From positions 806,001-870,000 of the forward strand of contig NZ_KZ848473.1 in the NCBI RefSeq assembly GCF_003327285.1: DNA of 64,000 bases, given 5' to 3'. The DNA comes from Microbacterium sorbitolivorans (GTDB lineage: Bacteria > Actinomycetota > Actinomycetes > Actinomycetales > Microbacteriaceae). Shown here piece by piece: positions 13,518 through 37,236 of this stretch (within the stretch, counting starts at the first letter, position 1; every line of letters begins with the position of its first letter). Below the pieces are notes generated by a model that was not told the DNA's origin, ran no database searches, and was given only the letters and a program-made list of their open reading frames with translations. A program made the translations under genes and the position numbers.

Positions 13518-13557
13518 GACCGAACTATCGTTGACTATGACAAGGAGGGAGCAGCCG

Positions 13558-15577: not shown

Positions 15578-15940
15578 TCAGGCACCAACGAGGGTGCGGG
15601 TTGCGTCAGTGAGCGCAGCCGCGGTGGGCTGGTAGTAAGCCCACCGTCCGCGCTGTTCCCGGGTGACGAGGCCTGCCTCGACGAGGAGCTTCATGTGATG
15701 CGAGACAGTCGGCTGTGACAGCCCGACAGGTTCGGTGAGATCACAGATACACATCTCGCCGTCCTTGCTGGCGACGATGAGCGAGAAGAGCTTTACCCTG
15801 CTGGGATCGCCGAGCGCCTTGAACACTCGCGAGAGCGAGGTTGCCGCCTGGTCATCGATGACGTGTGTGGTCAGTGGCGCGCAACAGTTTTCGACGGTTT
15901 CAGGGGCGGCATCGATCAGCTGTGAGGGCATATCAACCAT
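15578..15940 (-). CDS. arsR: ArsR-family arsenic-responsive repressor
   Basis: This is a 120-residue winged-helix repressor from ATG 15940. It holds two classical thiol sites: adjacent C19-C20 near the N terminus, as in the corynebacterial ArsR type, and C64-I-C66 in EMCICDL, the enterobacterial CVCDL position. Which set binds As(III) cannot be told by eye. It is divergent from the ArsO-like gene, with a near-perfect palindrome between them, so autoregulation is expected. In-frame extension upstream of 15940 crosses the operator and is not credible. Confidence 0.85.
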   Translation of the reverse strand: MVDMPSQLIDAAPETVENCCAPLTTHVIDDQAATSLSRVFKALGDPSRVKLFSLIVASKDGEMCICDLTEPVGLSQPTVSHHMKLLVEAGLVTREQRGRWAYYQPTAAALTDATRTLVGA

Positions 15941-15950
15941 TGTGCCTGAC

Positions 15951-15970
15951 GTATTGACAGTTGTCGATAC
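15951..15970. promoter_or_regulatory. ArsR operator between arsR and the arsO-like gene
   Basis: The palindrome GTATTGACAGTTGTCGATAC has 9-bp arms with one mismatch. It is centred in the divergent intergenic region, 11 bp from the arsR start and 49 bp from the start at 16019. Confidence 0.7.
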
Positions 15971-16018
15971 GTGAGGCAAGCTCGATGTATTGATGTTCTT
16001 CGATGTATGGAGGTCGGG

Positions 16019-17341: not shown

Positions 17342-17350
17342 GCAAGTACA

Positions 17351-17392
17351 CGGCGGGGCGGGCAGGAACCGAGACTCCTGCCCGCCCCGCCG
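17351..17392. terminator. Bidirectional terminator between convergent ars genes
   Basis: A perfect 17-bp stem (CGGCGGGGCGGGCAGGA and its complement) encloses an 8-nt loop. It lies between the convergent ArsO-like gene and arsC and is followed by an AT-rich ATATTTAT on the right. Confidence 0.88.
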
Positions 17393-17396
17393 ATAT

Positions 17397-17816
17397 TTAT
17401 GCAGCGGAGAAACCGAGTTCGCCCGCGAGCTGTCGAACCTTGTCGGTGATCTGATCCCGGATCGCGCGGGTGCGGTCACCACCACCGATGTCGGAAGCGT
17501 CCTGGTCTGCGAAGGTCCAGGTCTCGATCACGCCGGCCATGCCGTCGACCGGTGCGACCTTTGCCTCGTCGCCGAGCACGATGACCCGGTCCACGCTGCG
17601 GAGGATCTCCGGGTCGATGGGCTTCGGGTACTCGCCCTCCATCGACGCGCCGACTTCGATGATCGCTTCCTCGGCGAGGGCGCTGAGCTTGTCGCTCGGT
17701 GCGGTGCCTGCCGAGTAGACGGTGATCGCGTCGCCGGCGTGCTGGCGCATGAGGGCTGCGGCCATCTGTGACTTGCCGCCGTTCTTCTTGCACACGAACA
17801 GCACCGACGCGCTCAT
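17397..17816 (-). CDS. arsC: Arsenate reductase, LMW-phosphatase fold (KKNGGKSQ type)
   Basis: This 139-residue protein has the low-molecular-weight phosphatase loop C9-KKNGGKSQMAAAL and DRVIVLGDEA downstream. The GGKSQ loop variant is found in corynebacterial arsenate-mycothiol transferases (ArsC1/ArsC1'). It should reduce As(V) after forming a thiol adduct, most likely mycothiol. It is the last gene of the trxB-to-arsC operon and overlaps the preceding arsC by 4 bp (ATGA). Confidence 0.82.
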   Translation of the reverse strand: MSASVLFVCKKNGGKSQMAAALMRQHAGDAITVYSAGTAPSDKLSALAEEAIIEVGASMEGEYPKPIDPEILRSVDRVIVLGDEAKVAPVDGMAGVIETWTFADQDASDIGGGDRTRAIRDQITDKVRQLAGELGFSAA

Positions 17817-18241
17817 GCGCTGGCCGCCTCGGTGGTCGCAGGCTCGAGCGAAGCGATGAGTTCCTCGATGCGGCGCTTGATCTCGTCACGGATGGGACGG
17901 ACGGACTCGATGCCCTGGCCGGCGGGGTCGTCGAGCTTCCAGTCCTCGTAGCGCTTGCCGGGGAAGAACGGGCAGGCGTCGCCGCAACCCATGGTGATCA
18001 CGACATCCGAGTCCTGCACGGCCTCGGTGGTGAGGACCTTCGGGGCCTCGCCGCGGATGTCGATGCCCTCCTCGAGCATCGCCTCGACGGCGACAGGGTT
18101 GATCTGCTCGGCGGGGATCGACCCGGCGGAACGGACCTCGATACGGCCGGCGGCGAGATGGCGGAGGTAGCCGGCGGCCATCTGGGAGCGGCCGGCGTTG
18201 TGGACGCAGACGAACAGGACGCTGGGCGTGGTGGTGGTCAT
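17813..18241 (-). CDS. arsC: Arsenate reductase, LMW-phosphatase fold (HNAGRSQ type)
   Basis: This 142-residue protein has the canonical loop C12-VHNAGRSQMAAGYL. A second cysteine in MGCGDACPFFPG matches the resolving cysteines of thioredoxin-linked arsenate reductases. The trxA and trxB genes in the same operon fit thioredoxin recycling. It starts 20 bp after the ArsR-ArsC fusion stop and overlaps the following arsC. Confidence 0.87.
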   Translation of the reverse strand: MTTTTPSVLFVCVHNAGRSQMAAGYLRHLAAGRIEVRSAGSIPAEQINPVAVEAMLEEGIDIRGEAPKVLTTEAVQDSDVVITMGCGDACPFFPGKRYEDWKLDDPAGQGIESVRPIRDEIKRRIEELIASLEPATTEAASA

Positions 18242-18261
18242 GATCGGAAGTCTTCCTTTTC

Positions 18262-19245
18262 TCAGTTCTTCACAAGCGAGTCGATAAGGGTGCGCACGCG
18301 TGCTTCGATGTCGTCGCGGATGGCGGCGACACCCTCTTCGGAGGCGAGGGCAGGGTCGCCGACCGCCCAGTCGTCATAGGTCACACCCGGAATGATCGGG
18401 CAGACATCGCCGCATCCCATCGTGACGACGACATCCGCCGCGCGCACGGCGTCGTCGGTGAGCGGCTTCGGGAACGCGGCCGCAGCGCCCTGCTCGCCCT
18501 CGATGCCGACGAGGATCGAGCGCACGTGTGGGTGCACCTCGGATGCAGGCATCGACCCGGCCGAGCGCGCGACGACCGCGCCGCCGGAGAACTGGTTCAC
18601 CAGTGCGGCGGCGAGCTGCGAGCGGCCCGCGTTGGCAACGCAGACGAACAGCACCTGCGGCTTGCCCGCCTCGCGATCGCGCGCGATGTCGGCGAGGCGC
18701 TGGCGGGCGAAGCGCTCGGTCAGCGGGATCATGTGGGTCGTCAGCTTCGCCGAGCGGACGAGACCGGCGAACGATTCCCGCACGATTGTCACGACGAGAT
18801 CGCGGTTCAAGTGCGGCATCTCGTCAGCGAGCTCCGTGGCGAGGTGCTCGACCTTCGCGGTGAGGGCCTCCAGCGCCGCCGCGCGGTCTTCCTGCTCGGT
18901 CGCAGCTTCAGCGATCGCGGCGAGCGCGAACGCGTCGAGCAGTGCGGTCACGGCCTGCTTCCTGGACGGCTGGATGCTGTAGTACACCCAGGTGCCGCGC
19001 CGCTCGGAAGCGAGCAGCCCGGTGTCCTTCAGCTTCTTCAGGTGATGCGAGACCGTCGGCTGGGAGACGTCGGCGAGCTCCGCGAGGTCGCACACGCAGG
19101 CCTCGCCGCGCGGGTCAGTCGCGATCGCCGACAGCATGCGCAGCCGGAACGGGTCAGCGAGCGCCTTCAGCGTCGACGCGACGGCGTCGGCGGCGTTCTC
19201 GCCGATGGCATGAGTCGGAGTAGGAGAACAGATCTCAGCGGTCAT
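18262..19245 (-). CDS. ArsR-ArsC fusion: arsenic-sensing repressor joined to arsenate reductase
   Basis: This 327-residue fusion contains three parts. Residues 20-95 form an ArsR winged helix with the As(III) site C50-V-C52 in EACVCDL and the recognition helix SQPTVSHHLKKL. Residues about 125-190 form a helical segment of the kind that precedes ArsC in three-domain proteins. Residues 197-327 form an LMW-phosphatase ArsC with catalytic C202-VANAGRSQ and MGCGDVCPIIPG. The fusion may let one polypeptide make and sense arsenite. The start at ATG 19245 overlaps the acr3 stop. Upstream in-frame sequence is a shadow of acr3. Confidence 0.86.
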   Translation of the reverse strand: MTAEICSPTPTHAIGENAADAVASTLKALADPFRLRMLSAIATDPRGEACVCDLAELADVSQPTVSHHLKKLKDTGLLASERRGTWVYYSIQPSRKQAVTALLDAFALAAIAEAATEQEDRAAALEALTAKVEHLATELADEMPHLNRDLVVTIVRESFAGLVRSAKLTTHMIPLTERFARQRLADIARDREAGKPQVLFVCVANAGRSQLAAALVNQFSGGAVVARSAGSMPASEVHPHVRSILVGIEGEQGAAAAFPKPLTDDAVRAADVVVTMGCGDVCPIIPGVTYDDWAVGDPALASEEGVAAIRDDIEARVRTLIDSLVKN

Positions 19246-20345
19246 GATGCCCTCGATTCGGTGACAGCGGGAACAGCATACGGGTCGGTGTCGAACCACT
19301 TCCGCGCCGCCCACAGGGAGACGTAGACGAGTCCCACAAGCACGGGCACCTCGATCAGCGGGCCGACGACGCCCGCGAGAGCCTGGCCGCTCGTCGCACC
19401 GAAGGTGCCGATCGCGACGGCGATGGCGAGCTCGAAGTTGTTGCCCGCCGCCGTGAAAGCGAGCGTCGTCGAGCGGGCGTAGTTCAGCCCGACTCCCTTG
19501 CCGAGCAGGAGGCCCGCGAACCACATAATCGCGAAGTACGCGAGCAGCGGCAGGGCGATGCGGGCGACGTCCCACGGCTGGGAGGTGATCGCCTCTCCCT
19601 GCAGGGCGAACAGCAGCACGATCGTGAAGAGCAGCCCGTAGAGGGCGAACGGGCCGATGACGGGGATGAACTTCGCCTCGTACCAGTCGCGGCCCTTCGC
19701 CTTCTCGCCGAAGAACCGGGTGAGGAACCCGGCCGCGAGCGGCACGCCGAGGAAGACGAGCACATTGATCGCGATCTGCCCGATCGAGACGTCGAGCCCC
19801 TGCGAGTCGAGGCCGAGCCAGCCCGGCAGCACGGTCAGGTAGAACCAGCCGAGCAGCGAGAACGCGACGACTTGGAAGACCGAGTTGATGAACACCAGCA
19901 CCGCGGTCGCTTCCCGGTCGCCGCAGGCGAGGTCGTTCCAGATCACGACCATCGCGATACAGCGCGCGAGCCCCACGATGATGAGACCCGTACGGTACTC
20001 GGGCAGGTCAGGTAGGAAGATCCACGCCAGGGCGAACATCACGGCCGGCCCCGCGATCCAGTTCAGGATGAGTGAGGAGACGAGGAGCTTCTTGTCCCCA
20101 GTCACGGCGGCGACCTTGTCGTAGCGGACCTTCGCCAGCACCGGATACATCATGATCAGCAGGCCGAGGCCGATCGGCACCGAGATCCCGCCGACCTCCA
20201 TGTGCGCGAGCACGTCGGACAGCGCCGGGATGAAGCGGCCGAGCAGGAGGCCCGCGACCATCGCGAGGCCGATCCACAGCGGCAGCCACCGGTCGAGGGT
20301 GGAGAGCTTCGCCGGCTTCGCGCGAACTTCAGTGACGGTGCTCAT
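19242..20345 (-). CDS. arsB: Arsenite efflux permease (Acr3 family)
   Basis: This 367-residue transporter has about ten transmembrane helices and exports arsenite. The conserved functional cysteine is C129 in GLARCIAMVVIWNDLA, and the family motif AAGNNFELAIAV is present near the C terminus. It overlaps trxA upstream and the ArsR-ArsC fusion downstream by 4 bp each (ATGA), indicating translational coupling. Confidence 0.94.
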   Translation of the reverse strand: MSTVTEVRAKPAKLSTLDRWLPLWIGLAMVAGLLLGRFIPALSDVLAHMEVGGISVPIGLGLLIMMYPVLAKVRYDKVAAVTGDKKLLVSSLILNWIAGPAVMFALAWIFLPDLPEYRTGLIIVGLARCIAMVVIWNDLACGDREATAVLVFINSVFQVVAFSLLGWFYLTVLPGWLGLDSQGLDVSIGQIAINVLVFLGVPLAAGFLTRFFGEKAKGRDWYEAKFIPVIGPFALYGLLFTIVLLFALQGEAITSQPWDVARIALPLLAYFAIMWFAGLLLGKGVGLNYARSTTLAFTAAGNNFELAIAVAIGTFGATSGQALAGVVGPLIEVPVLVGLVYVSLWAARKWFDTDPYAVPAVTESRAS

Positions 20346-20668
20346 GCGATCAGCTCGTCGATCATGCCCGCGATGACGGGCTTGGGGTTCGCACCGATGA
20401 GCACGTCGACGCGCTCACCGCCGCGGTAGAAGCCGAGGGTCGGGATCGAGGTGACGCCGGCGGCCATCACGGTCGCGGGGTTCGCATCCGCGTCGAGCTT
20501 GACGATCTTCACTCGGCCGTCGTACTCGCCGGCGAGGTCTTCGAGGATCGGTGCGATCGCCTTGCACGGTCCGCACCAGGTCGCCCAGATGTCGACCAGC
20601 ACGGGGATCTCGGACTGCAGCACCTCGGCCTCGAACGTGGCGTCAGTGACGGTGATGGTCGCGCTCAT
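20342..20668 (-). CDS. trxA: Thioredoxin in ars operon
   Basis: This 108-residue thioredoxin has the active site W-C32-GPC35 and the cis-proline segment TSIPTLGFY. In this operon it most likely recycles one or more ArsC proteins, with electrons from the adjacent thioredoxin reductase. The start at ATG 20668 overlaps the trxB stop (ATGA). Confidence 0.93.
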
Positions 20669-21633
20669 GCGGATACCTCCAGAAGTTCGGTCTCGGTCTC
20701 GCCAGCGGGCAGGCCGGCGAGGAAGTGCTGGGCGTCGAGGGCCGCGGCACATCCGGTGCCCGATGCGGTGATCGCCTGACGGTAGCGGCGGTCGACGAGG
20801 TCACCTGCGGCGAAGACACCCGGCAGGTTCGTCGCGGTGGTCGGGTGGTCGACGAGCACATAGCCCTCGTCGTCGAGATCGACCTGCCCGGTCAGCAGCT
20901 CCGAGCGCGGGTCGTGGCCGATCGCGACGAACACACCGGAGACGGGCAGGACGCGCTCAGCACCAGTGGCCGTGTTGCGCAGGCGGAGCGCCTCGACGGC
21001 GCTCTCGCCGACCAGCTCGGCGACCTCGCTGTTCCACGCGACCTCGATCTTCGGGTCGGCGAGCACGCGCTCGGCCATGATCTTCGACGCGCGGAACTCG
21101 TCGCGGCGGTGCACGACGGTCACCTTCGACGCGAAACGCGTCAGGAACAGCGCTTCTTCCATCGCGGAGTCACCGCCGCCGACCACCGCGATCTCCTTCT
21201 CCCGGAAGAAGAAGCCGTCGCACGTCGCGCACCACGACAGACCATGACCCGACAGACGCTCCTCATCGGCGAGGCCGAGCTTGCGGTACGCGGAGCCGGT
21301 GGTGAGGATCACGCTGCGCGAGCGGAACGTCTCACCCGAACCGGTCTCGATCGTCTTCACGTCGCCAGCGAGATCGAGACTGGTCGCATCGTCATAGAGG
21401 ATGCGCGCACCGAAACGCTCAGCCTGCGCCCGCATCGCCTCCATCAGCTCCGGACCCTGCACACCGTCGGTGAAGCCCGGGAAGTTCTCGACCTCGGTGG
21501 TCGTCATGAGCGAACCGCCGGCGGTCACCGCGCCGGCGATCACGACGGGAGCGAGCCCCGCCCGAGCCGCGTAGACCGCGGCCGTGTACCCTGCCGGGCC
21601 GGACCCGACGATCACTACCTGTTGCATCGACAT
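20665..21633 (-). CDS. trxB: Thioredoxin reductase (ArsT-like)
   Basis: This 322-residue NADPH-dependent flavoprotein has the FAD motif [15 protein letters not shown], the dithiol C135-AT-C138 in [10 protein letters not shown], and the NADPH motif [15 protein letters not shown]. It is the first gene of a six-gene overlapping operon ending at 17397. Its position in an arsenic operon matches arsT of Streptomyces ars clusters. ATG 21627 is a possible alternative start. Confidence 0.94.
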
Positions 21634-21811: not shown

Positions 21812-22777
21812 TCAGGTATCGGTACGTCCGCTGTCGCGCCGCGCATCTTTCGTATTGCCGCCCTCGAGCGACGCGAGGTACTCGTTGTACGCTTCTAGAT
21901 CGATCTCGTCCTGAGTCTGTCGGCGCGACGCGAGCTTCGCATCCCGTTTGCTCCATCGCGACAGCGTAACGATGAGCACGATGAGCAACGGCAGCTCCGC
22001 GTACGTCCACATCATCGTCCCCGCGACGATCTGGTCTCGCATCGGATCGATCGCCCAACCGTCGCGTGTCACGTCGTATGCGCTGAACAACGGGGCAGCG
22101 GAAAGCAGCATCACCAGGCCCAGCACAGCGTGGACTTGGATCTCGACGACGACCTCAACCAGGCGGCCGGCGAACGACGTCGGCCTCGGCACGGGGTCTG
22201 AGGACCAGAGCGGAACCGCGGCGACGACGCCCAACGCGAATATCGCCAACAAGAGGACTTCATGGCCGACGGGCACACGGACGAGCAGGCTCACCAGATC
22301 GGTGAGGTAGAGCCCCGGGTACAGCAGGATCGCAATCAGGATCGCGATGCCCGGTCGCACCAGAACTCGGCTGACAGGGGACCTCAAGCCGCCGAGTGCG
22401 AGCCGGAGCGCGGTTCTGCCGATCCTCCGATGGGGCGTCGCACGCAGCAGCAGACGGCCAGGCGTCCCGAGCACCAGCAATGGCGCAACGATTGTCATCA
22501 GGGTGATCTGCTGGAACAGCAGCGCGGAGATGAGAACTTCGGCGTATGCGTGTACGCCGAGACAACCTGTTGCAGCCAGCAGCGCGCATCCGAGCAGGAA
22601 CGCGATCGATCTGCCGATCGGCCAGCGTCGGCCGGCGCGCCGTAGCCGAATCACTCCGAGCAGGTACAGAACCGCCCCGATCCCGGCGATGACGACGAGA
22701 ACGGACACTCCGTTGGGCGAGAACGAGAGCAGAGACGGCCACGTTGGAGCCGGTAGATTCTGCGCGTCGATGTTCAT
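21812..22777 (-). CDS. CtaG-like cytochrome c oxidase assembly protein
   Basis: This roughly 321-residue integral membrane protein (ATG 22777) has about seven helices and CtaG/caa3-assembly family features: HAYAEVLISALLFQQ, APLLVLGTPGRLLLR and DPMRDQIVAGTMMW. Such proteins are linked to copper insertion into haem-copper oxidases. It is the last gene of the DsbA-Lnt-CopCD operon and starts 10 bp after CopC. A related CtaG-like domain is fused to CopD upstream, so the operon encodes two such modules. Confidence 0.75.
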   Translation of the reverse strand: MNIDAQNLPAPTWPSLLSFSPNGVSVLVVIAGIGAVLYLLGVIRLRRAGRRWPIGRSIAFLLGCALLAATGCLGVHAYAEVLISALLFQQITLMTIVAPLLVLGTPGRLLLRATPHRRIGRTALRLALGGLRSPVSRVLVRPGIAILIAILLYPGLYLTDLVSLLVRVPVGHEVLLLAIFALGVVAAVPLWSSDPVPRPTSFAGRLVEVVVEIQVHAVLGLVMLLSAAPLFSAYDVTRDGWAIDPMRDQIVAGTMMWTYAELPLLIVLIVTLSRWSKRDAKLASRRQTQDEIDLEAYNEYLASLEGGNTKDARRDSGRTDT

Positions 22778-22787
22778 CCTGTTGGTG

Positions 22788-23498
22788 TCACTCCTCGTCA
22801 GGATCGTCCCCGGCATCACGCCGGGACTTCGTGTAGGCACGGAGCACAAAGACCAGCGCGATCAGGATGAGTACGACGATGAAGCCTGCAAATACGAACA
22901 GCCCTCCCATACCGGCTCCCGTGTCGGCGCTGGATTCCTCTTGAGATTCCTGGGCACCATTGCGAGGGGCCTCCGTGGTCGGTATCGGAGCGGCTTCCTC
23001 CGGCGTCTCTGCATCAGGAGCCGTCGTCTCCTCCTGATCAACGTCTTCGCTGCCCGGCTGCACGCGCTGATCCTCATTGTCGCAAGCGGGGAGATCCCAT
23101 CCCAGTGCCGGAGTCCCGCCTGAGACAGGCTCATAGTCGAAGTCGAAGGCTTCCGAGACCGGGTGGCCGTCGCTCGACACCGCGTTCCACGTCACTGTGT
23201 AGGTCCCGGCTTCACCGAGCTCAACGGGAGTGGAGAGTACGTTCCGTTCGATCGTCGAGCATGCGGTCTCGTAGTAGAGACCATCCGGTCCCTCGACCTG
23301 CGCAAAACTCGCCTGACCGAAGTCGATCAGCTCGCCGCTGAACGTAAGCGCGACCTCATCAAGAGTCGACACCGTCTCTCCGTTCGCGGGGGTCGACTCG
23401 AGCATCGTGTCGTGTGCCGAAGCGGCCTGCGTCGGGATGAGTACCGCAGCGGCAAGCACTGCGCCCCCCACCAAGGTTCGTCCGAGCGTGAGTTTCAT
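22788..23498 (-). CDS. copC: CopC-domain protein, membrane-anchored
   Basis: This 236-residue exported protein has a signal peptide ending ASA, leaving H29 as the mature N-terminal residue, the usual Cu(II)-binding amine and histidine of CopC. The second conserved histidine is H112 (SSDGHPVSEAF). An acidic Pro/Glu/Thr linker leads to a C-terminal transmembrane helix and a charged tail. The start at ATG 23498 overlaps the CopD stop. It would bind copper on the outer face and pass it to CopD. Confidence 0.88.
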   Translation of the reverse strand: MKLTLGRTLVGGAVLAAAVLIPTQAASAHDTMLESTPANGETVSTLDEVALTFSGELIDFGQASFAQVEGPDGLYYETACSTIERNVLSTPVELGEAGTYTVTWNAVSSDGHPVSEAFDFDYEPVSGGTPALGWDLPACDNEDQRVQPGSEDVDQEETTAPDAETPEEAAPIPTTEAPRNGAQESQEESSADTGAGMGGLFVFAGFIVVLILIALVFVLRAYTKSRRDAGDDPDEE

Positions 23499-25390
23499 CG
23501 CTTTCCTTCCAGTACTGCTTTTCGTGTGTCGATCTGTTCCTGAGCGCCTCGCGCAGGTGAGCGCGATGCGCGAAGCATGACGGGAGCGACGAGTATGACG
23601 CCCCCACCGAGGAGGAATGCCACCGCGGCGATATCCTGATCCGCTACCGGCTCCGGCCCCCATGCCCGCCCCATCGCGCCGAACCATTCGGCAGCGATCA
23701 GCCCTTGTTGGAAGCGGACCCATGCCGCGAAGCTCAGCAATGCGACCAGAGCGATACCGATCGCGGCCACTCGCTGACCGGCTTGCTCCCGACCGCTCCC
23801 GGACGCGTTCAGGGCCGCCATAATCAGTGCTCCGCCGACAAGCGATACGACGATCATCATTTGATGTCCGAGCTGGTTGGACAGAGTCCAGCGGAAGATC
23901 CCCGGCGCCGCGCCGACCCAGACGATGGCGGCGAACACCAGCGCCGCGACAATCGGCGCAGAGAGCGCGGTACGCACGCGAGAGGCACCGAGCCGCATGA
24001 TTGCCTCGCGCGGACCGAACGAACCGTCTGACCGCGGAAGAATCGTGCGGATCGCCAGCTCGTACGGCGCGGCCGATGCGAGGAGAAGCGGAACCGCGGT
24101 GAGAAGCAGCACTCGACCGAGTGCGTTCATACTGTGCATGTAGTCGCTATATACAGCGCTCGGACCCGACGTCACCCAGGCGAGCAGGGCGAGACCTGCC
24201 ATCCACGCCGTCGTACGCCGACGCGACCATCGCGCTCCGGCTCGACGGATTCGATGAACACCGAGTGCGTAGTACACAGCTGCTGCGCCGGCGAGCACTG
24301 CCCAAAGCAGATCCAGCTTCCATTCGCCGAGCCACGTGGACCCGTCGATCGGCGCGGGCAGGGGTGCGTCCGTCAAGAATTCAGCTGGCGTCACAAGTAC
24401 GGGAGCAGAGCTGTCCGCAGGTGCAGGTGTGCGCGAAAGTGCGGTCGCCGTTCCCATAGCGACTCCCATGATCAGCAGTTCGAAGGCCACCAGCATCCAG
24501 AAAGCAGTGCGTCGGGCGAGACGTGTGATCATGCGACTTCTGTAGTACGCGCCGAGCACGGCGAGCCCTGCCAACGCTGCTGTCTTGATCCCGAGCAGTG
24601 CGCCGTATGGGCTCCACAAGTCCGCCAGCGCCGTGATCGACGTCAGCGCACGGGCCACCCCTGACAGAAGCACGAGCATGAAAGAGGCCAGGGCGAGAGA
24701 GGAATACCTGGCGACAACAGCTCCGATGCTCTCGCGCGGGATCAACGGCCGAACCAGGATGAGGGTGAGCAGCCCGCCCACCCATACGGCAGCGCCGACG
24801 ACATGCAGGATGAGGGCCATCACAGCGGCATCGTGGTTCGCGAGGCTTCCCGCGTGCCCCTGGGTCGACAGGGGTACGAGGCATACCACGGCGAGGATCA
24901 TGAGGACGGTTTCGGCAATAGCACCGCGCGCAACGACCGCGAACGTAGAGATGATCGCCGCGCCGATCACTGTCAGCAGCCACGCGAGCCCGAGTTCCGT
25001 CTCCGTCAGGAAGCGGCCGAGCTGCTCGCCGAATCCGATGTCCAACGATAGTTCCGGAGCGAGCGTCGAGAGATACGTCAGAAAGCCGGCCCCGGTCGCC
25101 GCCGCAGTCAGGACGACCGCCGCGGCCGCGGCGATCACTTGCGACGCTTCATATGCTTTGGAACCGCGCGGCAGGGCGAAGGCGCGCAGAATGAGAGAGC
25201 CCGCCATAACGCCGCCGGCAAGGTTCACGATGAGCTTCGCGAACGGGAGCCCCCATCGCACGAACGCTCCGGGATCGGAGACGAGACGTTCGGCTGCGCC
25301 TGACCCGAGCACCAATCCGAACGCTGTCATGAGCACTGCGAACACGAGCAGTCCCACTGGGCCGATGAGACGCAACTGGCGGAGCGTCAT
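23495..25390 (-). CDS. copD: CopD-CtaG fusion membrane protein
   Basis: This 631-residue polytopic protein is a fusion. The N-terminal half matches CopD copper-import proteins, with histidine-containing helices such as STQGHAGSLANHDAAVMALILHV. The C-terminal half matches the CtaG/caa3-assembly family (SDYMHSMNALGRVLLLTAVPLLL and LSNQLGHQMMIVVSL, broken here by family-typical spacing). Fusions of this kind are common in Actinobacteria. Copper uptake and delivery to cytochrome oxidase is the expected role. It overlaps both neighbours by 4 bp. Confidence 0.88.
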   Translation of the reverse strand: MTLRQLRLIGPVGLLVFAVLMTAFGLVLGSGAAERLVSDPGAFVRWGLPFAKLIVNLAGGVMAGSLILRAFALPRGSKAYEASQVIAAAAAVVLTAAATGAGFLTYLSTLAPELSLDIGFGEQLGRFLTETELGLAWLLTVIGAAIISTFAVVARGAIAETVLMILAVVCLVPLSTQGHAGSLANHDAAVMALILHVVGAAVWVGGLLTLILVRPLIPRESIGAVVARYSSLALASFMLVLLSGVARALTSITALADLWSPYGALLGIKTAALAGLAVLGAYYRSRMITRLARRTAFWMLVAFELLIMGVAMGTATALSRTPAPADSSAPVLVTPAEFLTDAPLPAPIDGSTWLGEWKLDLLWAVLAGAAAVYYALGVHRIRRAGARWSRRRTTAWMAGLALLAWVTSGPSAVYSDYMHSMNALGRVLLLTAVPLLLASAAPYELAIRTILPRSDGSFGPREAIMRLGASRVRTALSAPIVAALVFAAIVWVGAAPGIFRWTLSNQLGHQMMIVVSLVGGALIMAALNASGSGREQAGQRVAAIGIALVALLSFAAWVRFQQGLIAAEWFGAMGRAWGPEPVADQDIAAVAFLLGGGVILVAPVMLRASRSPARGAQEQIDTRKAVLEGKR

Positions 25391-25890
25391 GAGCTGCTCC
25401 CCTCGTCCGCATTCGCTCCTTCGCGTACATCCGCCTCCGTGCATTGCCCGGTTGACGGCAGCTGCTGAGCTGCCACAGCAAGGCGATCGAGAACGTCGTC
25501 TGCCGAGAGCACGGTTGTATCGACGACGACCTCGGCTGCCGGGTTACGACCGAACGTCGCGAGTGTCAGCTGAGGTGAACGCGACTCGTCCACGGTCCAA
25601 TCGACTCCTCCGATACGAACGCATTGCTTGTCGTCCGATGCCACTGGGTCTGTCCCGCAGGTGAAGGTCACTGCCGTCGGATCGCCCCATGCCCCTGTAG
25701 CTTGGGCGTTCGTCCAACGACGCGTCTGCTCACCGATCGCGTTCGGCAACCGTACCGAGGCAGCGGCGCACTCAACCTCGTTCGCGCCCGGTGCGGGGGT
25801 GAGCGGAACCGTATCGGCGCAGGCTGTGAGCGCAGCCGCGAGTGCGAGCAGGGCCACAGCCGTTCCGGTGGTTCGTGTTCCTGTTTTCAT
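25387..25890 (-). CDS. DUF3515-like lipoprotein
   Basis: This 167-residue exported lipoprotein has a signal peptide and lipobox LTAC (Cys 24). The mature part has four cysteines and a CGTDPVASD...QCVRIGGVDW pattern like DUF3515 proteins. The function is unknown. It lies between Lnt and CopD-CtaG with 4-bp overlaps on both sides, so it may be a substrate of the adjacent Lnt and a partner of the copper proteins. Confidence 0.72.
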   Translation of the reverse strand: MKTGTRTTGTAVALLALAAALTACADTVPLTPAPGANEVECAAASVRLPNAIGEQTRRWTNAQATGAWGDPTAVTFTCGTDPVASDDKQCVRIGGVDWTVDESRSPQLTLATFGRNPAAEVVVDTTVLSADDVLDRLAVAAQQLPSTGQCTEADVREGANADEGSSS

Positions 25891-27446
25891 GACTTCCGTT
25901 CTGTTGCGGCCGAGCGGTTGCTCAACCGAACGAGCCCGAGTGAGATGAGCGTGCAGATCGCAAGCACTGCGAGGCCCGCGATTGGGATCGATCCGATGAC
26001 GACCGCCGGAGTCCGGCCCGCGTACAACGGAACATCCGATACCGACGCAGCAGACTCGCCCGGAGCCGCGGCGTCGATCACGGAGCCGTCCGGCAGCACG
26101 ACCTGGCTCGTGCCGGTCGTCGACACGTTGACGACAGCCCTACCGGCTTCGAACGCCCGGAGACGAGCGATCGCCATCTGCTGCAGGTTCTCGTCAGTAC
26201 CGCGGAAGTCTGCGTTGTTCGTTTGAAAGATATAGACCTCCGCGCCGCCTTCCGCGCCGGCTCGGATCACGTCGTCGTAGATCAGGTCGAAGCAGATCCC
26301 GACGCCGATCCGAACGCCGTCGACATCGAGCACGGGCTCAGTCCTCCCAGCCGTGTACTCGCGTTGTATGAGCCCCACCAGTCCCGGGACGAGCCGTTCG
26401 TAGAACGCACGGTCGGGCACGTACTCACCGAACGGAACGGGATGGCGTTTGTCGTAGAACTGCACGCTGTCCCCTGTGCCCCAGAGGAACGATGTGTTGT
26501 AGGTCTCGCCCGAACGTGTGACGGCGGCGTTAGCCAGCAGCGGAGCGTCTGCGGCGCGAACGACGGCGTCGAGCCTGCGCGCAGTCTGCGGGCTCTGGTA
26601 CGGATCGCTGTCCACGGCTCCCTCGGGCCATACGATCAGATCTGCGCCGCGCCCGTAGAGCGCCTCGCTGCGTGCCTCGTGCAGTTCGAGGATCTCGCCG
26701 GGCGAACGGTCATCGAAGTACCCCGATGGTCCGTTCGCCTGAACCCACCCGATCGCCATCTGCCCGGTCTGTCGTGTCGGGAAGGCCGGGATCAGCGCCA
26801 GCGCACAGGCGAGCGACACAGGGAGCGCCAGCATTCTGAACCGCCGCGCCCAGAGACATTCGATCGTCAGAGCGCACACCGCAACGATCGCGAACGAGAC
26901 CCCGTCGACGCCGATCCACGACACCGCCTCTGCGAACGGTCCGTTCGCTTGACTCGTCGCCACCCGCGCCCACGGGAATCCGGAATACGGCCAGGTACCC
27001 GCCACCATTTCCCGCGCAGACCACAGTCCAGCCACGAGACCGGGGCGCACCAGGAAGCGCGCGCGGACACCGAGCTTCTCTGTCCATCGATAGGCAAGGG
27101 CGATTGCGATGCCTCCCGCCGCTACGAGGGCACCTTCCAGCCCGACGAGAGCAACCCAGGGCAGCGGCCCCAGGAACTCCCCCACCCAACTGAGATGGAT
27201 CGCGAAGAAGACGACGCCGAATACGGTTCCGACGAGGATTGCGCCGAGGACACTTCGACCGCGCAGCGCCATCAGCGTCAGCACAACAGCGACGAACGCC
27301 GCCGGCCAAAGTCCTACTGCGGGGTACGCGACATCGAGCATCACGCCTGCCAGTACCGTCGAGGCTATCGCCCACCGCAATCGGAGCACGCCTGTCTGTG
27401 CCGCAGTCGCCCGCGGCGCAGACACCGGTTCAGTCTGCGAGAGCAC
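25887..27446 (-). CDS. lnt: Apolipoprotein N-acyltransferase, island copy
   Basis: This 519-residue membrane enzyme adds the third acyl chain to lipoprotein N termini. It has N-terminal helices and a nitrilase domain with catalytic triad E275 (WPEGAVDS), K333 (YDKRHPVPFGEYVP) and C385 (GICFDLIY). The start is GTG 27446, overlapping the DsbA-like gene by 17 bp. A second complete Lnt is encoded in the backbone at 46111-47673. This paralogue sits in a copper operon on an island that encodes at least three lipoproteins, which suggests dedicated maturation of those proteins. Confidence 0.9.
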   Translation of the reverse strand: MLSQTEPVSAPRATAAQTGVLRLRWAIASTVLAGVMLDVAYPAVGLWPAAFVAVVLTLMALRGRSVLGAILVGTVFGVVFFAIHLSWVGEFLGPLPWVALVGLEGALVAAGGIAIALAYRWTEKLGVRARFLVRPGLVAGLWSAREMVAGTWPYSGFPWARVATSQANGPFAEAVSWIGVDGVSFAIVAVCALTIECLWARRFRMLALPVSLACALALIPAFPTRQTGQMAIGWVQANGPSGYFDDRSPGEILELHEARSEALYGRGADLIVWPEGAVDSDPYQSPQTARRLDAVVRAADAPLLANAAVTRSGETYNTSFLWGTGDSVQFYDKRHPVPFGEYVPDRAFYERLVPGLVGLIQREYTAGRTEPVLDVDGVRIGVGICFDLIYDDVIRAGAEGGAEVYIFQTNNADFRGTDENLQQMAIARLRAFEAGRAVVNVSTTGTSQVVLPDGSVIDAAAPGESAASVSDVPLYAGRTPAVVIGSIPIAGLAVLAICTLISLGLVRLSNRSAATERKS

Positions 27447-28107
27447 GATCGATGGCGTCGGTCAGATCGCTGAGCTGAGTGAGCTCGAGCTGCTCTCCGT
27501 CGAGAAAGAACGTGGGCGTTCCGCCTACTCCCAGGGCACGTCCCTCCGAGAAGTCTTCCTCGACGCGCGCTTGGGTCCCCGGGTCAGCGACCGCGGCATC
27601 ATAGTCGGCCATGTCGAGTCCGAGCTCCTCCGCGTATGAACGGAACCTCGCGGCTTCGGACGTCTGACCCTCTCCCCACTCGGCCTGCGTCTCGAACATG
27701 AGATCGTGCATCTCTTCGAAGCTTCCCTGCTGGGCGGCGGCCTCGACGGCGACGGCAGCGTTCATCGAATTGAAGTGGCCCGGGATCGGGAAGTATCGCA
27801 CGACATAGTTGATGTCGCCGTCGTACTGCTGCCGGATCTCTTCGACATAGGGGGCGAAAGCACCGCACACCTCGCACTCGAAATCGAGGAACTCGACGAG
27901 CGTCGGTGCGTCTGGGCCCACGTAATCAAGAACGTGCGAGTCGCTCCGAGTGATCGGCAGCTCGCCACGGTCTGGAGCGACCTCGTCCGGCGCTGACGTC
28001 TTCACATAGACAACGGCTGCGATCACGATGATCACAGCGATCACAGCTGAAATCAGCAGCGCAACGACGACGGTCGGCAGCTTCTTCGGCGTACGGCGGG
28101 CGTTCAT
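27430..28107 (-). CDS. Membrane-anchored DsbA-like thiol oxidoreductase
   Basis: This 225-residue protein (ATG 28107, preceded by GGAGG) has an N-terminal membrane anchor at residues 11-36 and a thioredoxin-fold domain with C78-EV-C81. The cis-proline segment is GGTPTFFLDG. It belongs to the DsbA/thioredoxin_4 group that exchanges disulfides outside the membrane. As first gene of the lnt-copCD operon it may keep copper-site cysteines of the co-encoded exported proteins in the right state. The longer in-frame reading to 28437 lacks a good start. Confidence 0.85.
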   Translation of the reverse strand: MNARRTPKKLPTVVVALLISAVIAVIIVIAAVVYVKTSAPDEVAPDRGELPITRSDSHVLDYVGPDAPTLVEFLDFECEVCGAFAPYVEEIRQQYDGDINYVVRYFPIPGHFNSMNAAVAVEAAAQQGSFEEMHDLMFETQAEWGEGQTSEAARFRSYAEELGLDMADYDAAVADPGTQARVEEDFSEGRALGVGGTPTFFLDGEQLELTQLSDLTDAIDRALAD

Positions 28108-28274: not shown

Positions 28275-28709
28275 TCAGATTCTTGAGATACCCAGAAGAA
28301 GAGGTGTAGGAGCGGGAATCGGAACCACTCTCCGGGCGCGCAGCGCGAGCATGCCCAGGAGCGGCCCGAGCTTCACGACGAGCCGCGGCCCAGCGAGGAA
28401 GAGCAGGCCGGCGAAAGCGAGAGATACCGCGCAGCACACCCCGAGCAGGCAGAGCGCATCGGCGGCTTCTCCCGATTCGTCAGCGCCGGCCGTCACAACG
28501 TCGCCGGAAGTCGCATCGACTACTTCCGTCCCGTAGGCAGCGGCGATCTCATTGCCTTGGGCAACGAACCCATGCTGCTCAGCGGCCTCATGCATGCACA
28601 GAGCAAGCGCGCCGAAGAGGAGAAAACCGATGAGCGCCAGGATCAGTGAGCGCCTCGCAACCGCCGAACCGCCCTCTGCGGGCGCGACGGATGTACGAGG
28701 AGGGATCAC
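28275..28709 (-). CDS. Small two-helix membrane protein, DUF6153-like (copy 2)
   Basis: This 144-residue protein (GTG 28709) has an N-terminal helix, an exported loop with CMHEAAEQHG, a second helix containing CLLGVCC, and a short cytoplasmic end PLLLGISRI. Layout and C terminus parallel the protein at 13558-14055, and both close a CmtR/CDF/P-type-ATPase cassette. The function is unknown; metal handling is inferred from context and Cys/His content. The longer reading upstream lies antisense to the CDF gene and is rejected. Confidence 0.6.
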   Translation of the reverse strand: MIPPRTSVAPAEGGSAVARRSLILALIGFLLFGALALCMHEAAEQHGFVAQGNEIAAAYGTEVVDATSGDVVTAGADESGEAADALCLLGVCCAVSLAFAGLLFLAGPRLVVKLGPLLGMLALRARRVVPIPAPTPLLLGISRI

Positions 28710-28755: not shown

Positions 28756-29667
28756 TCAGCTGTGAAGTCCATCCTCGTCGCCGTAGCCGACTGCTTCCAG
28801 CTGGAATGTCGAGTGTTCAATATGCACGGGAAAATGCTCGCCGACGCACGACTGCAGGTCGCGCAGGAGCGCGTCGCGACCAGCATCGTCGATGACAGTC
28901 TCGTCAATGACGACATGCGCCGAGAGCGTTGGCAGCTGGCTTGAAACGAGAGATGCGTGGAGGTCGTGCACTGCCACCACGCCTGGGCGGGACAAGATAT
29001 GCGCACGAACTTCGGCGAGATCCAAACCGGGCGGCGTTCGTTCGAGCAGAACGCCGACGGATGCGCGGATGAGGATCAGCGTGCGCGGGACGATGAGTGC
29101 GGCGACCGCGATGCCCGCGACTGCGTCGGCGCGCTCCCAACCGAGCGTCGCGATCAGCACGGCGCTGACGATCACTGCCACTGACCCGAGCGCGTCGTTC
29201 ACGACTTCGAGGAACGCCGCCCGCATGTTGAGGTTATCGCCCCGCCCTCCGGCAAGCACGGTGATCGAGGCAATGTTCGCGACGAGGCCGATGACTCCGA
29301 ATATCAGAAGTGCGGTCGATGGCACCGCTGGCGGCTCGAACAAGCGCCGTACTCCTTCGACCAGCGCGAAGAGACCTACTCCCAAGAGCAATGCCGCTTG
29401 TCCGAGTGCGGCGAGAATCTCGCTGCGTTTCAAACCCCAGGTGTAGCGATCCGACGGCGGCTTCTCCATCAGCAGTGCCGCCGAGACCGCGACCGCAAGG
29501 CCGACGAGGTCAGTCAGCATGTGCGCGGCGTCGACCAGCAGCGCCAAGCTTCCCGTCAGAACTGCTCCGACGACTTCGACGACGAATACGGACCCGGTGA
29601 TGCAGAGCGCGATCGCGAGGCGCCGACGCGGCGCCGCGGCATGACTGTGGTCGTGATGGTCTCCCAT
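28756..29667 (-). CDS. Cation diffusion facilitator (CzcD/ZitB-like)
   Basis: This 303-residue metal/proton antiporter has six helices, the metal-site motif H-MLT-D (DAAHMLTDLVG) in helix 2 and E-VVN-D (LEVVNDALGS) in helix 5, then a C-terminal cytoplasmic domain rich in histidines. The N terminus starts GDHHDHSH. Zinc, cadmium or cobalt are likely substrates. It follows the P-type ATPase after 8 bp in the cmtR-2 operon. Confidence 0.9.
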   Translation of the reverse strand: MGDHHDHSHAAAPRRRLAIALCITGSVFVVEVVGAVLTGSLALLVDAAHMLTDLVGLAVAVSAALLMEKPPSDRYTWGLKRSEILAALGQAALLLGVGLFALVEGVRRLFEPPAVPSTALLIFGVIGLVANIASITVLAGGRGDNLNMRAAFLEVVNDALGSVAVIVSAVLIATLGWERADAVAGIAVAALIVPRTLILIRASVGVLLERTPPGLDLAEVRAHILSRPGVVAVHDLHASLVSSQLPTLSAHVVIDETVIDDAGRDALLRDLQSCVGEHFPVHIEHSTFQLEAVGYGDEDGLHS

Positions 29668-29675
29668 GATTCCTT

Positions 29676-31652
29676 CTAACGGGTCGCGGTCTGTATTGCG
29701 GCGTTCGGTGCCTGCACAGAGTTCCTCGAGAGCCGGCGCCTCGTCTGCGCGGCGCGCAAACCATTGGCGATGACGACGACTTCGGCGACTTCATGCACGA
29801 GCACGACAGCGGCAAGCCCCAGCACTCCCGTGATCGCGAGCGGCAGCAGAACGATGATGATCGCGAGCGACAGCACGATGTTCTGGTTCATGATCGCCCG
29901 GCCGCGGCGTGCGTGGCGCAGAGCCTGCGGGATGAGGCGCAGGTCGTGACCGGTGAAGGCGACATCAGCGGACTCGATCGCGGCATCGGAGCCAGTTGCG
30001 CCCATCGCGATCCCGACCGTCGCCGAGGCGAGAGCGGGAGCGTCGTTGATGCCGTCACCGATCATGCCGGTGGGGCGCTGTGCGACTGATGCGGTCACCT
30101 CTGCGGCTTTGTCCTCGGGACGCAGCTCGGCACGCACGTCGGAGATACCGGCGATTTTCGCCAGCGCCATGGCAGTGCGCGCGTTGTCGCCCGTGAGCAT
30201 GACGACCTCGACGTTCTGCGCGCGGAGAGCAGCGACCGCCTCCGGTGCCTCGGCGCGCAGTTCATCGCGGACGCCAATCGCACCGGCCACGCTGCCGTCG
30301 CGCGTGACCATGACGCAGGTCTGTCCGTCAGCTTCCATCGCCGCGACTCGGTCGGCCAGCACGCCGGGAGCGATCCAGCGCGGGCTGCCGACAGTGATCT
30401 CATGGCCATCGACCTGCCCGGCCATTCCATGCCCAGGCTGCTCGATCACACGAGCCGCGGCTGGTGCGCCCGGAGCCGCCTCAGTGATGGCGGCGGCAAG
30501 CGGATGCGTGCTGTGCTGCTCCAGTGCAGCGGCCCAGCCGAGCACGTCCTCGCGGGAAATCGCAGTAGCCGCGGCGACGTCGGTCACCACGGGCTCGTTG
30601 CGCGTCAAAGTGCCGGTCTTGTCGACCGCGATCCGGCGGAGCGAGCCAAGCCGTTCGAACGCGGCCCCGCTCTTGATGATGACGCCGAACCGGGTGGCTG
30701 CACCGATGGCCGAGACCACGGTGACCGGAACGGCGATGGCAAGGGCACATGGCGAGGCGGCCACGAGCACAACCAGGGCGCGAGTGATCCAAGTCTGCGG
30801 GTCACCGCTGAGCAGCGAGCCGAGCACGCCCACCAGCAGTGCGAGAACGATCACGCCGGGGACCAACGGACGCGCGATCCGGTCGGCGAGACGCGCCCTC
30901 TGCCCACGCTCCTGCTGCGCCTGCTCGACGAGCCCGACCAGGGTCGTCAACGAGTTGTCCGTCCCGTCGGCCGTGGCGGTGATCTCGAGTGCACCGGAAG
31001 TGTTGATCGACCCAGCCGCGACCTCGTCGCCCACACCAATGTCTACCGGGATCGATTCGCCGGTGATTGCCGAGGTGTCGAGGCTGCTACGACCCGACGC
31101 CACAGTGCCGTCGGTTGCCACGCGCTCACCAGGTCGGACCCGAATCACGTCGCCGATCTTCACCTCCCTGGCTGGGACCTCGACGGCGGTGCCACCTCGT
31201 ACAACGGTGGCCGTCTCGGGTACGAGCCTGAGCAGAGCACGCAGTCCTGAGCGGGCACGGTCCATCGCCTTGTCTTCCAACGCCTCCGCAATGGAGTACA
31301 GGAACGCCAGAGCTGCGGCTTCCTCGACGTAGCCGAGAATCACCGCGCCGACGGCGCTGATCGTCATCAGCAGCGCGATCCCGACTTTTCCTCGGGTAAA
31401 CAGACCACGCACTGCCCCAGGGACGAACGTCCATGCGCCCAGCAGGAGTCCGGACCAGAACAGCACGAGCACCGTGATCTCGGCAGCGACGCTGTCGCCG
31501 GTCATCCACCCGGTGAGCAGCCCCGAGACGAAGAAGATGCCTGATGCGATCGGGACGAGGATCGCGGGGTCGCGCCACCATGGGCGCTCGACATCTTTAA
31601 GCTCTTCGACCGCGCTGGGAACGTCATGCTCGCAACCGCACGCCGCGCTCAT
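29676..31652 (-). CDS. Heavy-metal P1B ATPase with SPC motif
   Basis: This 658-residue pump (ATG 31652, overlapping cmtR by ATGA) has a short Cys-containing N terminus (AACGCEHD) without an HMA domain. The transmembrane metal motif is S-P-C (ASPCALAIAVPVTVV), followed by DKTGTLTRNEP, an HP motif (HSTHPLA) and GDGINDAPAL. The last helix contains HEVAEVVVIANG, similar to the HEG motif of P1B-4 pumps. SPC-type pumps are usually linked to Co(II)/Fe(II). The paired CmtR suggests Cd/Pb response, as with CmtR-controlled pumps in mycobacteria. Substrate is uncertain. Confidence 0.88.
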   Translation of the reverse strand: MSAACGCEHDVPSAVEELKDVERPWWRDPAILVPIASGIFFVSGLLTGWMTGDSVAAEITVLVLFWSGLLLGAWTFVPGAVRGLFTRGKVGIALLMTISAVGAVILGYVEEAAALAFLYSIAEALEDKAMDRARSGLRALLRLVPETATVVRGGTAVEVPAREVKIGDVIRVRPGERVATDGTVASGRSSLDTSAITGESIPVDIGVGDEVAAGSINTSGALEITATADGTDNSLTTLVGLVEQAQQERGQRARLADRIARPLVPGVIVLALLVGVLGSLLSGDPQTWITRALVVLVAASPCALAIAVPVTVVSAIGAATRFGVIIKSGAAFERLGSLRRIAVDKTGTLTRNEPVVTDVAAATAISREDVLGWAAALEQHSTHPLAAAITEAAPGAPAAARVIEQPGHGMAGQVDGHEITVGSPRWIAPGVLADRVAAMEADGQTCVMVTRDGSVAGAIGVRDELRAEAPEAVAALRAQNVEVVMLTGDNARTAMALAKIAGISDVRAELRPEDKAAEVTASVAQRPTGMIGDGINDAPALASATVGIAMGATGSDAAIESADVAFTGHDLRLIPQALRHARRGRAIMNQNIVLSLAIIIVLLPLAITGVLGLAAVVLVHEVAEVVVIANGLRAAQTRRRLSRNSVQAPNAAIQTATR

Positions 31653-32014
31653 TCTCCGGCCCCCTCGCCTGCGTCGCAGCAGCCGGGGATCGAGCAGGCC
31701 GGGTCGATGCACGGCGCACTCTCGTCGACTGCCAAGGTCACGTCTACGAGTGCCGTCAGCGCCGCGGCAAGATGCGGGTCCGCGATCTCGTATCGGGTCT
31801 GCCGCCCTTCCAGCTCTGCGACCACGATGCCGCAGTCACGCAGACAGGTCAGATGGTTCGAGACGTTCGAACGGGTCAGATCAAGCTCACGCGACAGCAC
31901 CCCCGGATAGTTGGGACCGTCGAGGAGCGTCATCAGAATCCGGGAACGCGTCGGGTCCGCCATAGCCCGGCCAAGCCGGTTCATAACGTCGAGACGCGAG
32001 GCAATGGTCAGCAT
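31649..32014 (-). CDS. cmtR: CmtR-type ArsR-family metal sensor (copy 2)
   Basis: This 121-residue repressor is closely similar to the copy at 10208-10567 and keeps the CmtR ligands C57, C61 (HLTCLRDC) and C102 (CIDPAC). It starts the right-hand metal cassette and overlaps the ATPase gene by 4 bp. The two copies are in opposite orientation about 21 kb apart. In-frame extension upstream of 32014 passes through the promoter and is rejected. Confidence 0.88.
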   Translation of the reverse strand: MLTIASRLDVMNRLGRAMADPTRSRILMTLLDGPNYPGVLSRELDLTRSNVSNHLTCLRDCGIVVAELEGRQTRYEIADPHLAAALTALVDVTLAVDESAPCIDPACSIPGCCDAGEGAGE

Positions 32015-32045
32015 GCAGTGAACTATACACTGATTACTGAACACT
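32015..32045 (-). promoter_or_regulatory. Promoter of cmtR copy 2, apparently leaderless
   Basis: On the minus strand TATAGT (forward 32022-32027) ends 7 nt before ATG 32014, as in the first cmtR copy. The word TGTATAGT-TCA-CTGC resembles TGTATGGT-CA-GTGC there. No clear -35 was seen. Confidence 0.5.
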
Positions 32046-37048: not shown

Positions 37049-37113
37049 ACCTGGAAGGTGAGCAGCGCCGTCCGTGGACCCCCAGGAACATCCGTACGCG
37101 GGCCACCCCGCGA

Positions 37114-37136
37114 GTAAACGGACGGGTTTTCGGACA
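37114..37136 (+). repeat. Candidate integrase arm-type site, right
   Basis: AGTAA-ACGGACGGGTTTTCGGAC repeats the sequence at 9355-9377 with one mismatch, upstream of the xis-int operon and 100 bp inside attR. Confidence 0.6.
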
Positions 37137-37236
37137 GATGCAGTAGTGAGACGCATCATGCTCAGCATGAGACTCCCCTGTCGTTTCTAGGAGAAACGAG
37201 ACTGCGGGTCGTACTGTGGTTCACCAACCAACAAGC

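Follow-up and report, generated by a model that had tools for sequence, protein, structure and literature searches.

Why should a thiol oxidoreductase and a second apolipoprotein N-acyltransferase be encoded in one row with copper-delivery proteins? This question is raised by six adjacent genes of the soil-type bacterium Microbacterium sorbitolivorans (dsbA-like, lnt, DUF3515, a copD-ctaG fusion, copC and ctaG; Table 1), which lie on a probable integrative element in a 64,000-nucleotide stretch of contig NZ_KZ848473.1, hereafter the window. The original prediction, made from the letters of the window, had read them as a stand-alone copper operon that folds and lipidates its own proteins and feeds or protects cytochrome oxidase. 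Our analysis leads us, tentatively, to regard the six genes as the compact form of a second, mobile and metal-linked assembly line, which would serve surface proteins that depend on thiols, copper or lipids, with cytochrome oxidase foremost among them.

The families and their order on the minus strand had been named correctly, since all six open reading frames (ORFs) are intact and open at 21812-28107 and the assignments stand against Pfam and NCBIfam profiles. The island Lnt reaches 230.9 bits with TIGR00546 (cut-off 132.9) and has both the LNT_N (PF20154) and the CN_hydrolase (PF00795) domain. CopC scores above the Pfam cut-off and under the NCBIfam CopC equivalog cut-off, and the fusion unites the Pfam domains CopD and Caa3_CtaG in one protein, as in the CtiP type, and stays under the NCBIfam equivalog cut-offs for CopD (57.4 vs 195) and CtaG (20 vs 279). 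For every family of the island, one or more relatives are encoded at another place in the 3.06-Mb host genome, which belongs to the same genus as the Microbacterium records from our scans: the genome encodes two Lnts (the other, housekeeping copy lies at 46111-47673 of the window), three Caa3_CtaG proteins, two of these in the island, five Thioredoxin_4 proteins, three CopC and two DUF3515. Stop/start overlaps had been claimed for nearly every junction; reading of the start codons leaves clear 4-nt overlaps at three of the five (Lnt/DUF3515, DUF3515/CtiP and CtiP/CopC), while CopC/CtaG stands at +10 and DsbA/Lnt at -17 (GTG 27446) or +4 (GTG 27425).

Recurrence in other genomes had been set beforehand as a check, and related sets were found, so that an objection from non-recurrence fails. 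A scan of 84,980 species genomes with peptides of the island Lnt gave 57 loci, of which the 54 of at least 12 kb were counted and three shorter ones excluded. In these we scored four arms, namely copper assembly (present in 41 loci), haem-c (46), thiol (47) and LspA/Lgt (46), using as reference set the window plus nine plasmid loci out of the ten annotated, which means that plasmid loci match partly by construction. At least three arms occur in 46 of the 54 loci, two in the near-twin L003 of Microbacterium nanhaiense, which carries the same element, and none in seven; Cd-type genes are found in 44. The usual large order is CadA, a hypothetical protein, DsbA, an FAD (flavin adenine dinucleotide) oxidoreductase, CDF (cation diffusion facilitator), CopC, zfTFIIB, LspA, DUF6804, TlpA, CcdA, ResB, CtaG and Lnt, and it continues after Lnt with M23, M23, CcsB, CtiP and DUF4307. 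Judged by gene content, the six-gene set is a compact form of this larger module, which adds LspA, TlpA, CcdA, ResB and CcsB.

The conserved core is Lnt-DUF3515-CtiP-CopC. Among 20 loci of the genus fetched by a DUF3515 match, a choice that biases the counts towards linkage, these four genes are syntenic in 14 and DUF3515-CtiP-CopC in 18, and two loci have no module. The longer string DsbA-Lnt-DUF3515-CtiP-CopC is common to the window, L102 and L106, with identities to the window proteins (L102/L106) of 74/76% for DsbA, 58/57% for Lnt, 57/59% for DUF3515, 49/48% for CtiP and 59/58% for CopC; chance grouping is unlikely, because the order is kept at 48-76% identity. In seven relatives, for which the start nearest the preceding stop was chosen so that short gaps are favoured, the junction is -4 in 7/7 for DUF3515/CtiP, in 5/7 for CtiP/CopC (+17 in L106, +165 in L036) and in 5/6 for Lnt/DUF3515 (-1 in L113). 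The exact six-gene composition did not prove to be conserved: the full string ending in ctaG was seen only in the window and in L003 (97.5-99.6% identical), and we discarded it as a recurring system. Genome G451 encodes a 99% identical DUF3515 by protein match, its neighbourhood lying outside the comparison.

The residues on which these proteins would depend are kept as well. In Lnt, E275, K333 and C385 are present in 81/81 Lnt-labelled rows, island and housekeeping copies together; in the island Lnt they align with the solved Lnt 5vrg, and we take them to be the Glu-Lys-Cys triad (E267, K335 and C387 in E. coli numbering). DsbA retains Cys78 and Cys81 of its CxxC motif in 51/51 rows, and CopC retains H29 (54/55), D110 (55/55) and H112 (55/55), presumably the copper ligands. 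DUF3515 has its lipid cysteine and four more (C24, C41, C78, C90 and C150) in 20/20 rows, while TlpA has the lipid cysteine in 54/56 and the CxxC in 56/56. An AlphaFold2 model of DUF3515 from four sequences reached a mean predicted local distance difference test (pLDDT) score of only 43.4 and was not taken to a fold search. The DUF3515 lipoprotein is plausibly a client of both Lnt and DsbA. The predicted private lipidation and folding module is borne out in its parts, with an Lnt that keeps its triad, a DUF3515 with lipid cysteine and four further cysteines, and two more predicted lipoproteins on the element, one of them CueP-like; the enzyme may acylate these neighbours, lipoproteins of the host, or both.

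With regard to control, the six genes follow cmtR2, cadA, a CDF gene and a DUF6153-like gene on the same strand, and the transcription unit may therefore begin further upstream than dsbA. The regulator gene closest to them encodes a CmtR of the Cd(II)/Pb(II) type (NF047906, 168.3 bits vs a cut-off of 150, scanned minus its first 8 residues); a second one, cmtR1 (10208-10567), reaches 174.4 bits against the same cut-off. With a CmtR-type regulator on the same strand and CadA and CDF as flanking transporters, we rejected 'copper operon' as the only label, and the genes do not stand alone as had been supposed. By eye, a TGTATAGTCA-like box is seen shortly before the cmtR start codon in the window and upstream of cmtR in many loci, and may be the -10 of a leaderless transcript.

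From the observed gene content, synteny, conserved active sites, CmtR-type regulator and paralogues we infer a mechanism that extends to induction, co-transcription, metal sensitivity of the host copies, clients and benefit. The element would be turned on by Cd, Pb or Zn via CmtR, and probably by copper, and CadA, the CDF and the copper ATPase would export metal from the cytoplasm. On the outer side of the membrane the metal would poison thiol-dependent, copper-dependent and lipoprotein-maturation steps, for which reason the element would bring its own copies of them: DsbA would form disulfides, Lnt would finish lipoproteins, CopC and CtiP would handle copper, and CtaG/CtiP would load it into cytochrome c oxidase, whose CuA subunit is here a predicted lipoprotein (the single COX2 of the genome has the lipobox LAGC). 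Larger versions would contribute the cytochrome c arm (TlpA, CcdA, ResB, CcsB) and LspA. As clients we envisage the host aa3 oxidase or bcc-aa3 supercomplex and the lipoproteins of the element, DUF3515, CueP and DUF305.

In its widest form, which we advance with a shade more reserve, the proposal is that actinobacteria possess a second pathway for building the respiratory bcc-aa3 supercomplex, one that is transmissible and induced by metals, and that they survive toxic metals by restoring the pathway under attack as well as by efflux. This pathway would comprise LspA, Lnt and sometimes Lgt for the processing of lipoproteins, DsbA, TlpA, CcdA, ResB and CcsB for the thiol chemistry of disulfides and haem c, and CopC, CtiP and CtaG for inserting copper, with oxidase subunit I in the fullest versions and the window as compact form. 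Accounts of metal resistance usually centre on efflux, oxidation and sequestration; a mobile module with spare machinery to assemble surface proteins that may be metal targets would, if true, be a different strategy, a duplication of the target pathway, and would mark lipoprotein maturation and oxidase assembly as growth-limiting steps under metals in actinobacteria. Such a second line may sustain respiration under toxic metals.

Several observations are consistent with the link to cytochrome oxidase that had been suggested from the six genes, and the larger modules (ResB, CcsB, CcdA, TlpA, LspA) and plasmids with ctaD nearby strengthen it, as a link read from gene neighbourhoods. The large module closely matches the caa3 biosynthesis set of B. 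subtilis, which includes CtaG, CcdA, ResA, ResB, ResC, LspA and Lgt among others (PMC9145763). In C. glutamicum, the one species for which such a requirement is known, CtiP is needed for a stable and active bc1-aa3 supercomplex, which its loss destabilises (PMC9145763). In this species CtaC is lipid-modified (PMC8795186), and copper excess induces ccsA, ccsB and a periplasmic thioredoxin along with tlpA from the cop cluster (PMC3140484). Cadmium reduces active oxidase in a Rubrivivax cadA mutant (PMC7283390), and B. subtilis oxidases are aided by a CopC-CopD importer of the YcnJ type (PMC13344008). On the plasmids, of which ten were annotated among 276 records with an Lnt match, picked from the actinobacterial hits, lnt lies within 12 kb of ctaD on 24 of the 36 records listed for both, compared to 3.7 expected by uniform placement; these 36 are mostly related Rhodococcus plasmids, many of them near-copies, with one ranked place per record.

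Other observations weigh against an assembly line serving the oxidase. In the structure described in PMC8795186, C. glutamicum CtaC is diacylglyceryl-modified, and the oxidase may therefore do without Lnt. The authors of PMC3140484 attribute the cytochrome c response to excess copper stimulating haem and cytochrome c synthesis, the reported target of Cd and Cu in Rubrivivax is cytoplasmic HemN and not an assembly factor (PMC7283390), and CtaG aggravates copper intoxication in one B. subtilis mutant background (PMC13344008). The window operon itself has no haem-c arm, LspA or ctaD, and its nearest regulator is not of a copper type; a 167-nt gap before dsbA weakens the case for co-transcription with cmtR. 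Scans for promoter-like sites (0 vs 1.3 in shuffles) and terminator-like sites (5 vs 4.6) were uninformative. Oxidase-assembly genes are absent from L063, which has Lnt, Lgt, CadA and CmtR, and from L066, which has Lnt, copper ATPases and a multicopper oxidase, and seven loci of the Lnt scan are without module.

The assembly line is nevertheless the most likely of the readings that we considered, with two others close behind that do not exclude it or each other. The original prediction of a self-contained module survives in one of them, which we consider rather unlikely as the main account: island Lnt and DsbA would serve DUF3515, CueP and DUF305 of the element (TlpA in larger versions), these would bind or handle surface copper, and the host oxidase would be a side beneficiary at most. 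It accommodates L063 and L066, in which Lnt accompanies metal pumps and no oxidase genes, and DUF3515, with its lipid cysteine and four invariant cysteines, directly after Lnt in 14/20 fetched loci. TlpA or DUF3515 is encoded in 46/54 Lnt-found loci, and the lipobox is present in 21/25 DUF3515, 60/68 TlpA, 13/26 DUF305 and 2/2 CueP, according to a pattern of our own, not SignalP, that also flags 2/68 CtaG, 1/60 ResB and 1/43 hyp689 rows. However, the housekeeping Lnt of the genome would be expected to modify the same lipoproteins, DUF3515 also occurs as a housekeeping protein and so is not inherently a private client, CtiP and CtaG belong to families of oxidase assembly, and the integral ResB/CcsB are part of the module.

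Alternatively, a metal-induced island Lnt might acylate the free alpha-amino group of surface lipoproteins and so stop copper or other metals from binding, the remaining genes being separate copper and redox cargo; we give this somewhat smaller odds. It would make Lnt the actinobacterial counterpart of the copper-induced Lit2/Lgt2 of Firmicutes, by analogy with lit2 and a second lgt, which share a transcript with the copper-resistance genes of a mobile element. For that system loss of metal binding by N-acylation was proposed, and copper binding by diacyl lipopeptides has some support from nuclear magnetic resonance (NMR) (PMC8275575, PMC8689077). Lnt is paired with Lgt on two plasmids (L063, L064), and Lnts of metal elements branch at several places in the Lnt tree. 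On the other hand, the housekeeping Lnt already N-acylates and would leave few free amino ends unless saturated or inhibited, and the company of Lnt with DsbA, CtaG, ResB and CcsB is left unexplained. That the genes merely gathered on metal-resistance elements, with duplicates kept by linkage and no joint function, seems improbable to us. Mobile elements do collect genes, the composition of the loci varies, 7/54 Lnt loci lack the module and the choice of loci by DUF3515 inflates linkage, but gene order and junction overlaps persist at 48-76% identity, active sites are conserved, and Lnt probably joined metal elements more than once.

This last point comes from two Lnt trees. The first started from 107 rows, of which 74 remained once those with 95% identity or more had been removed; 18 of the 74 are labelled unknown, 16 being 2.3-2.5-kb stretches without context and two short contigs. 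One clade of 44 rows (100/100), nested among housekeeping Lnts of the family, unites 41 of the 46 module-linked Lnts with the two short-contig rows and L041. The island Lnt of the window is sister to L102 and L106 (100/97), and the housekeeping Lnt of the window falls outside the clade, as do five plasmid rows (L062, L063, L065, L068 and L069). In the second tree, to which genomes of other orders were added, the Microbacteriaceae rows split from the rest (100/100), and plasmid Lnts of Rhodococcus and Gordonia (Mycobacteriales) group with genomes of their own wider class, not with Microbacteriaceae; the long-branch placements of L064, L066 and L068 are unsure. Since plasmid copies branch apart from the island clade, Lnt was likely recruited to metal elements at least twice, as far as the trees suggest.

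Metal elements that carry a second lipoprotein-modifying enzyme are already known from Lit2/Lgt2 and, in another form, LspB, and there are individual precedents for CtiP, CopC, CtaG and the cytochrome c arm. No description of the combination, of how widely it is spread or of the compact Lnt-DUF3515-CtiP-CopC core turned up in our searches of an open-licence library in which most subscription papers are missing. The claim that no system of this exact composition has been described holds to that extent. The lit2/lgt2 element of Listeria and Enterococcus likewise places a second, N-acylating lipoprotein-modifying enzyme on a mobile metal-resistance element (PMC8275575, PMC8689077). Here, however, the enzyme is an Lnt instead of a Lit and occurs in an actinobacterium that already has one Lnt, next to DsbA, DUF3515 and oxidase-assembly genes and with CmtR (Cd/Pb) nearest, so that the locus may at most work alike and is not a member. 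In Listeria cadC/cadA/lspB, an ArsR-family cadmium regulator is tied to a second lipoprotein-processing gene, the virulence-related signal peptidase lspB repressed by CadC (PMC7840573), whereas here Lnt comes with a larger maturation set. C. glutamicum has a CopD-Caa3_CtaG fusion (CtiP) and a membrane-anchored CopC as host copper-supply genes (PMC9145763), unlike the extra copies described here on a metal-resistance element beside Lnt and DsbA. Its horizontally moved cop cluster cg3281-cg3289 contains a P-type ATPase and a thioredoxin-like TlpA, with cytochrome c maturation genes in the same stimulon, but is controlled by CopRS, and Lnt, CtaG, CtiP and CopC are unlisted in the passages drawn on (PMC3140484). 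The CYT clusters of Antarctic Arthrobacter plasmids share plasmid-borne CcdA and DsbA-family genes and a COG3682 regulator, but were assigned by their authors to sulfur metabolism, in passages that mention neither Lnt nor CtaG nor CopC (PMC6305408). Together with Lit2/Lgt2 and LspB, the island Lnt offers a lead on why metal elements of unrelated Gram-positives repeatedly carry lipoprotein-modifying enzymes, and the uncharacterised DUF3515 lipoprotein gains a testable setting.

The six genes lie within 27.8 kb enclosed by two 24-nt repeats (23/24 nt identical), with integrase and xis at one end. Besides them, the cargo comprises cmtR-CDF-copper ATPase, DUF305, CueP, ars genes, thioredoxin and thioredoxin reductase, a CDF, CadA and a TraG-like coupling protein. 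The stretch 9353-37135 is probably an integrative element, and the combination of metal-resistance genes (CadA, CDF, copper ATPase, ars) with signs of mobility (integrase, TraG, repeats), together with plasmid copies in relatives, makes it likely that this metal-resistance element is mobile. The glnA-glnA2 spacing is 35.5 kb here vs 3.2-17.2 kb in the 18 genus genomes with both genes on one contig (17/18 at or below 10.8 kb), and G+C, about 0.72 on the left flank, drops to 0.63-0.70 inside the element. G451, a near-twin, has an exact repeat copy next to glnA and another next to int/xis, at a distance of 69.7 kb. The glnA-repeat junction occurs in single copy in G422 and G438; these were dropped as empty sites, because their contigs stop about 0.3-0.7 kb beyond the repeat. 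The right border is placed less securely than the left one, because the right-flank gene 37216-38025 was matched in only one of 24 genus genomes, that of the window.

Table 1 Features of the six-gene locus, its upstream genes and the enclosing element (positions in the window).
Feature	Position	Strand	Basis or remark
DsbA-like thiol oxidoreductase, membrane-anchored, CEVC active site	27430-28107	-	Pfam Thioredoxin_4/DSBA; PDB relatives are DsbA-type proteins
Island Lnt, second apolipoprotein N-acyltransferase	25887-27446	-	TIGR00546 over cut-off; solved Lnt relatives
DUF3515 predicted lipoprotein, lipobox LTAC and four further invariant Cys	25387-25890	-	Pfam DUF3515
CopD + Caa3_CtaG fusion, CtiP-like copper/oxidase-assembly protein	23495-25390	-	Pfam CopD, Caa3_CtaG
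CopC with C-terminal hydrophobic anchor	22788-23498	-	Pfam CopC
Caa3_CtaG-type oxidase assembly protein (ctaG)	21812-22777	-	Pfam Caa3_CtaG
Small hydrophobic protein resembling DUF6153	28275-28709	-	No Pfam family over cut-off; tblastn with DUF6153 protein of 13465-14055
Cation diffusion facilitator (CDF)	28756-29667	-	TIGR01297 over cut-off
CadA-type Cd/Zn/Pb P-type ATPase	29676-31652	-	TIGR01512, TIGR01525 over cut-off
cmtR2, CmtR-type Cd(II)/Pb(II) sensor repressor, overlaps cadA	31649-32014	-	NF047906
Perfect palindrome CAGTG-N7-CACTG, candidate operator	32016-32032	.	Directly before cmtR2 start; sole CAGT-N9-ACTG in window
24-nt direct repeat, left copy, likely attL	9353-9376	+	Just past glnA
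24-nt direct repeat, right copy, likely attR	37112-37135	+	Beside int/xis
Tyrosine integrase of element	35502-36824	-	Pfam Phage_integrase
Copper-type P-type ATPase, His-rich N-terminus	11280-13517	+	TIGR01511 over cut-off
DUF305 protein, lipobox LSGC (by reading)	14165-14773	+	Pfam DUF305
CueP-like copper protein, lipobox LVGC (own rule)	14838-15461	+	PF21172, 157.3 bits vs cut-off 27

Further observations concern the remaining cargo and the related loci. At 14838-15461 this actinobacterium encodes a lipobox-bearing member of the CueP family. The gene is followed by a large ars set (15578-20752) of ArsR, a flavoprotein, two ArsC, an ArsR-ArsC fusion, ACR3 and thioredoxin, and by a thioredoxin reductase (20665-21633). 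Right of the element lie a transposase-like ORF (38426-39727), presumably of the ISL3 type, and a similar fragment (41305-41574). On the actinobacterial plasmids L065 (16211-17962), L067 and L069 (1402-3192), ctaD, encoding oxidase subunit I, has lnt, genes for CtaG/CtiP or ResB, and metal transporters in its neighbourhood, with M56/BlaI-type genes close by in L065 and L069. Four contigs (L005, L006, L053 and L058) titled Planctomycetota, Acidobacteria or Planococcus carry module Lnts of the Microbacteriaceae type and are probably mis-binned or mislabelled.

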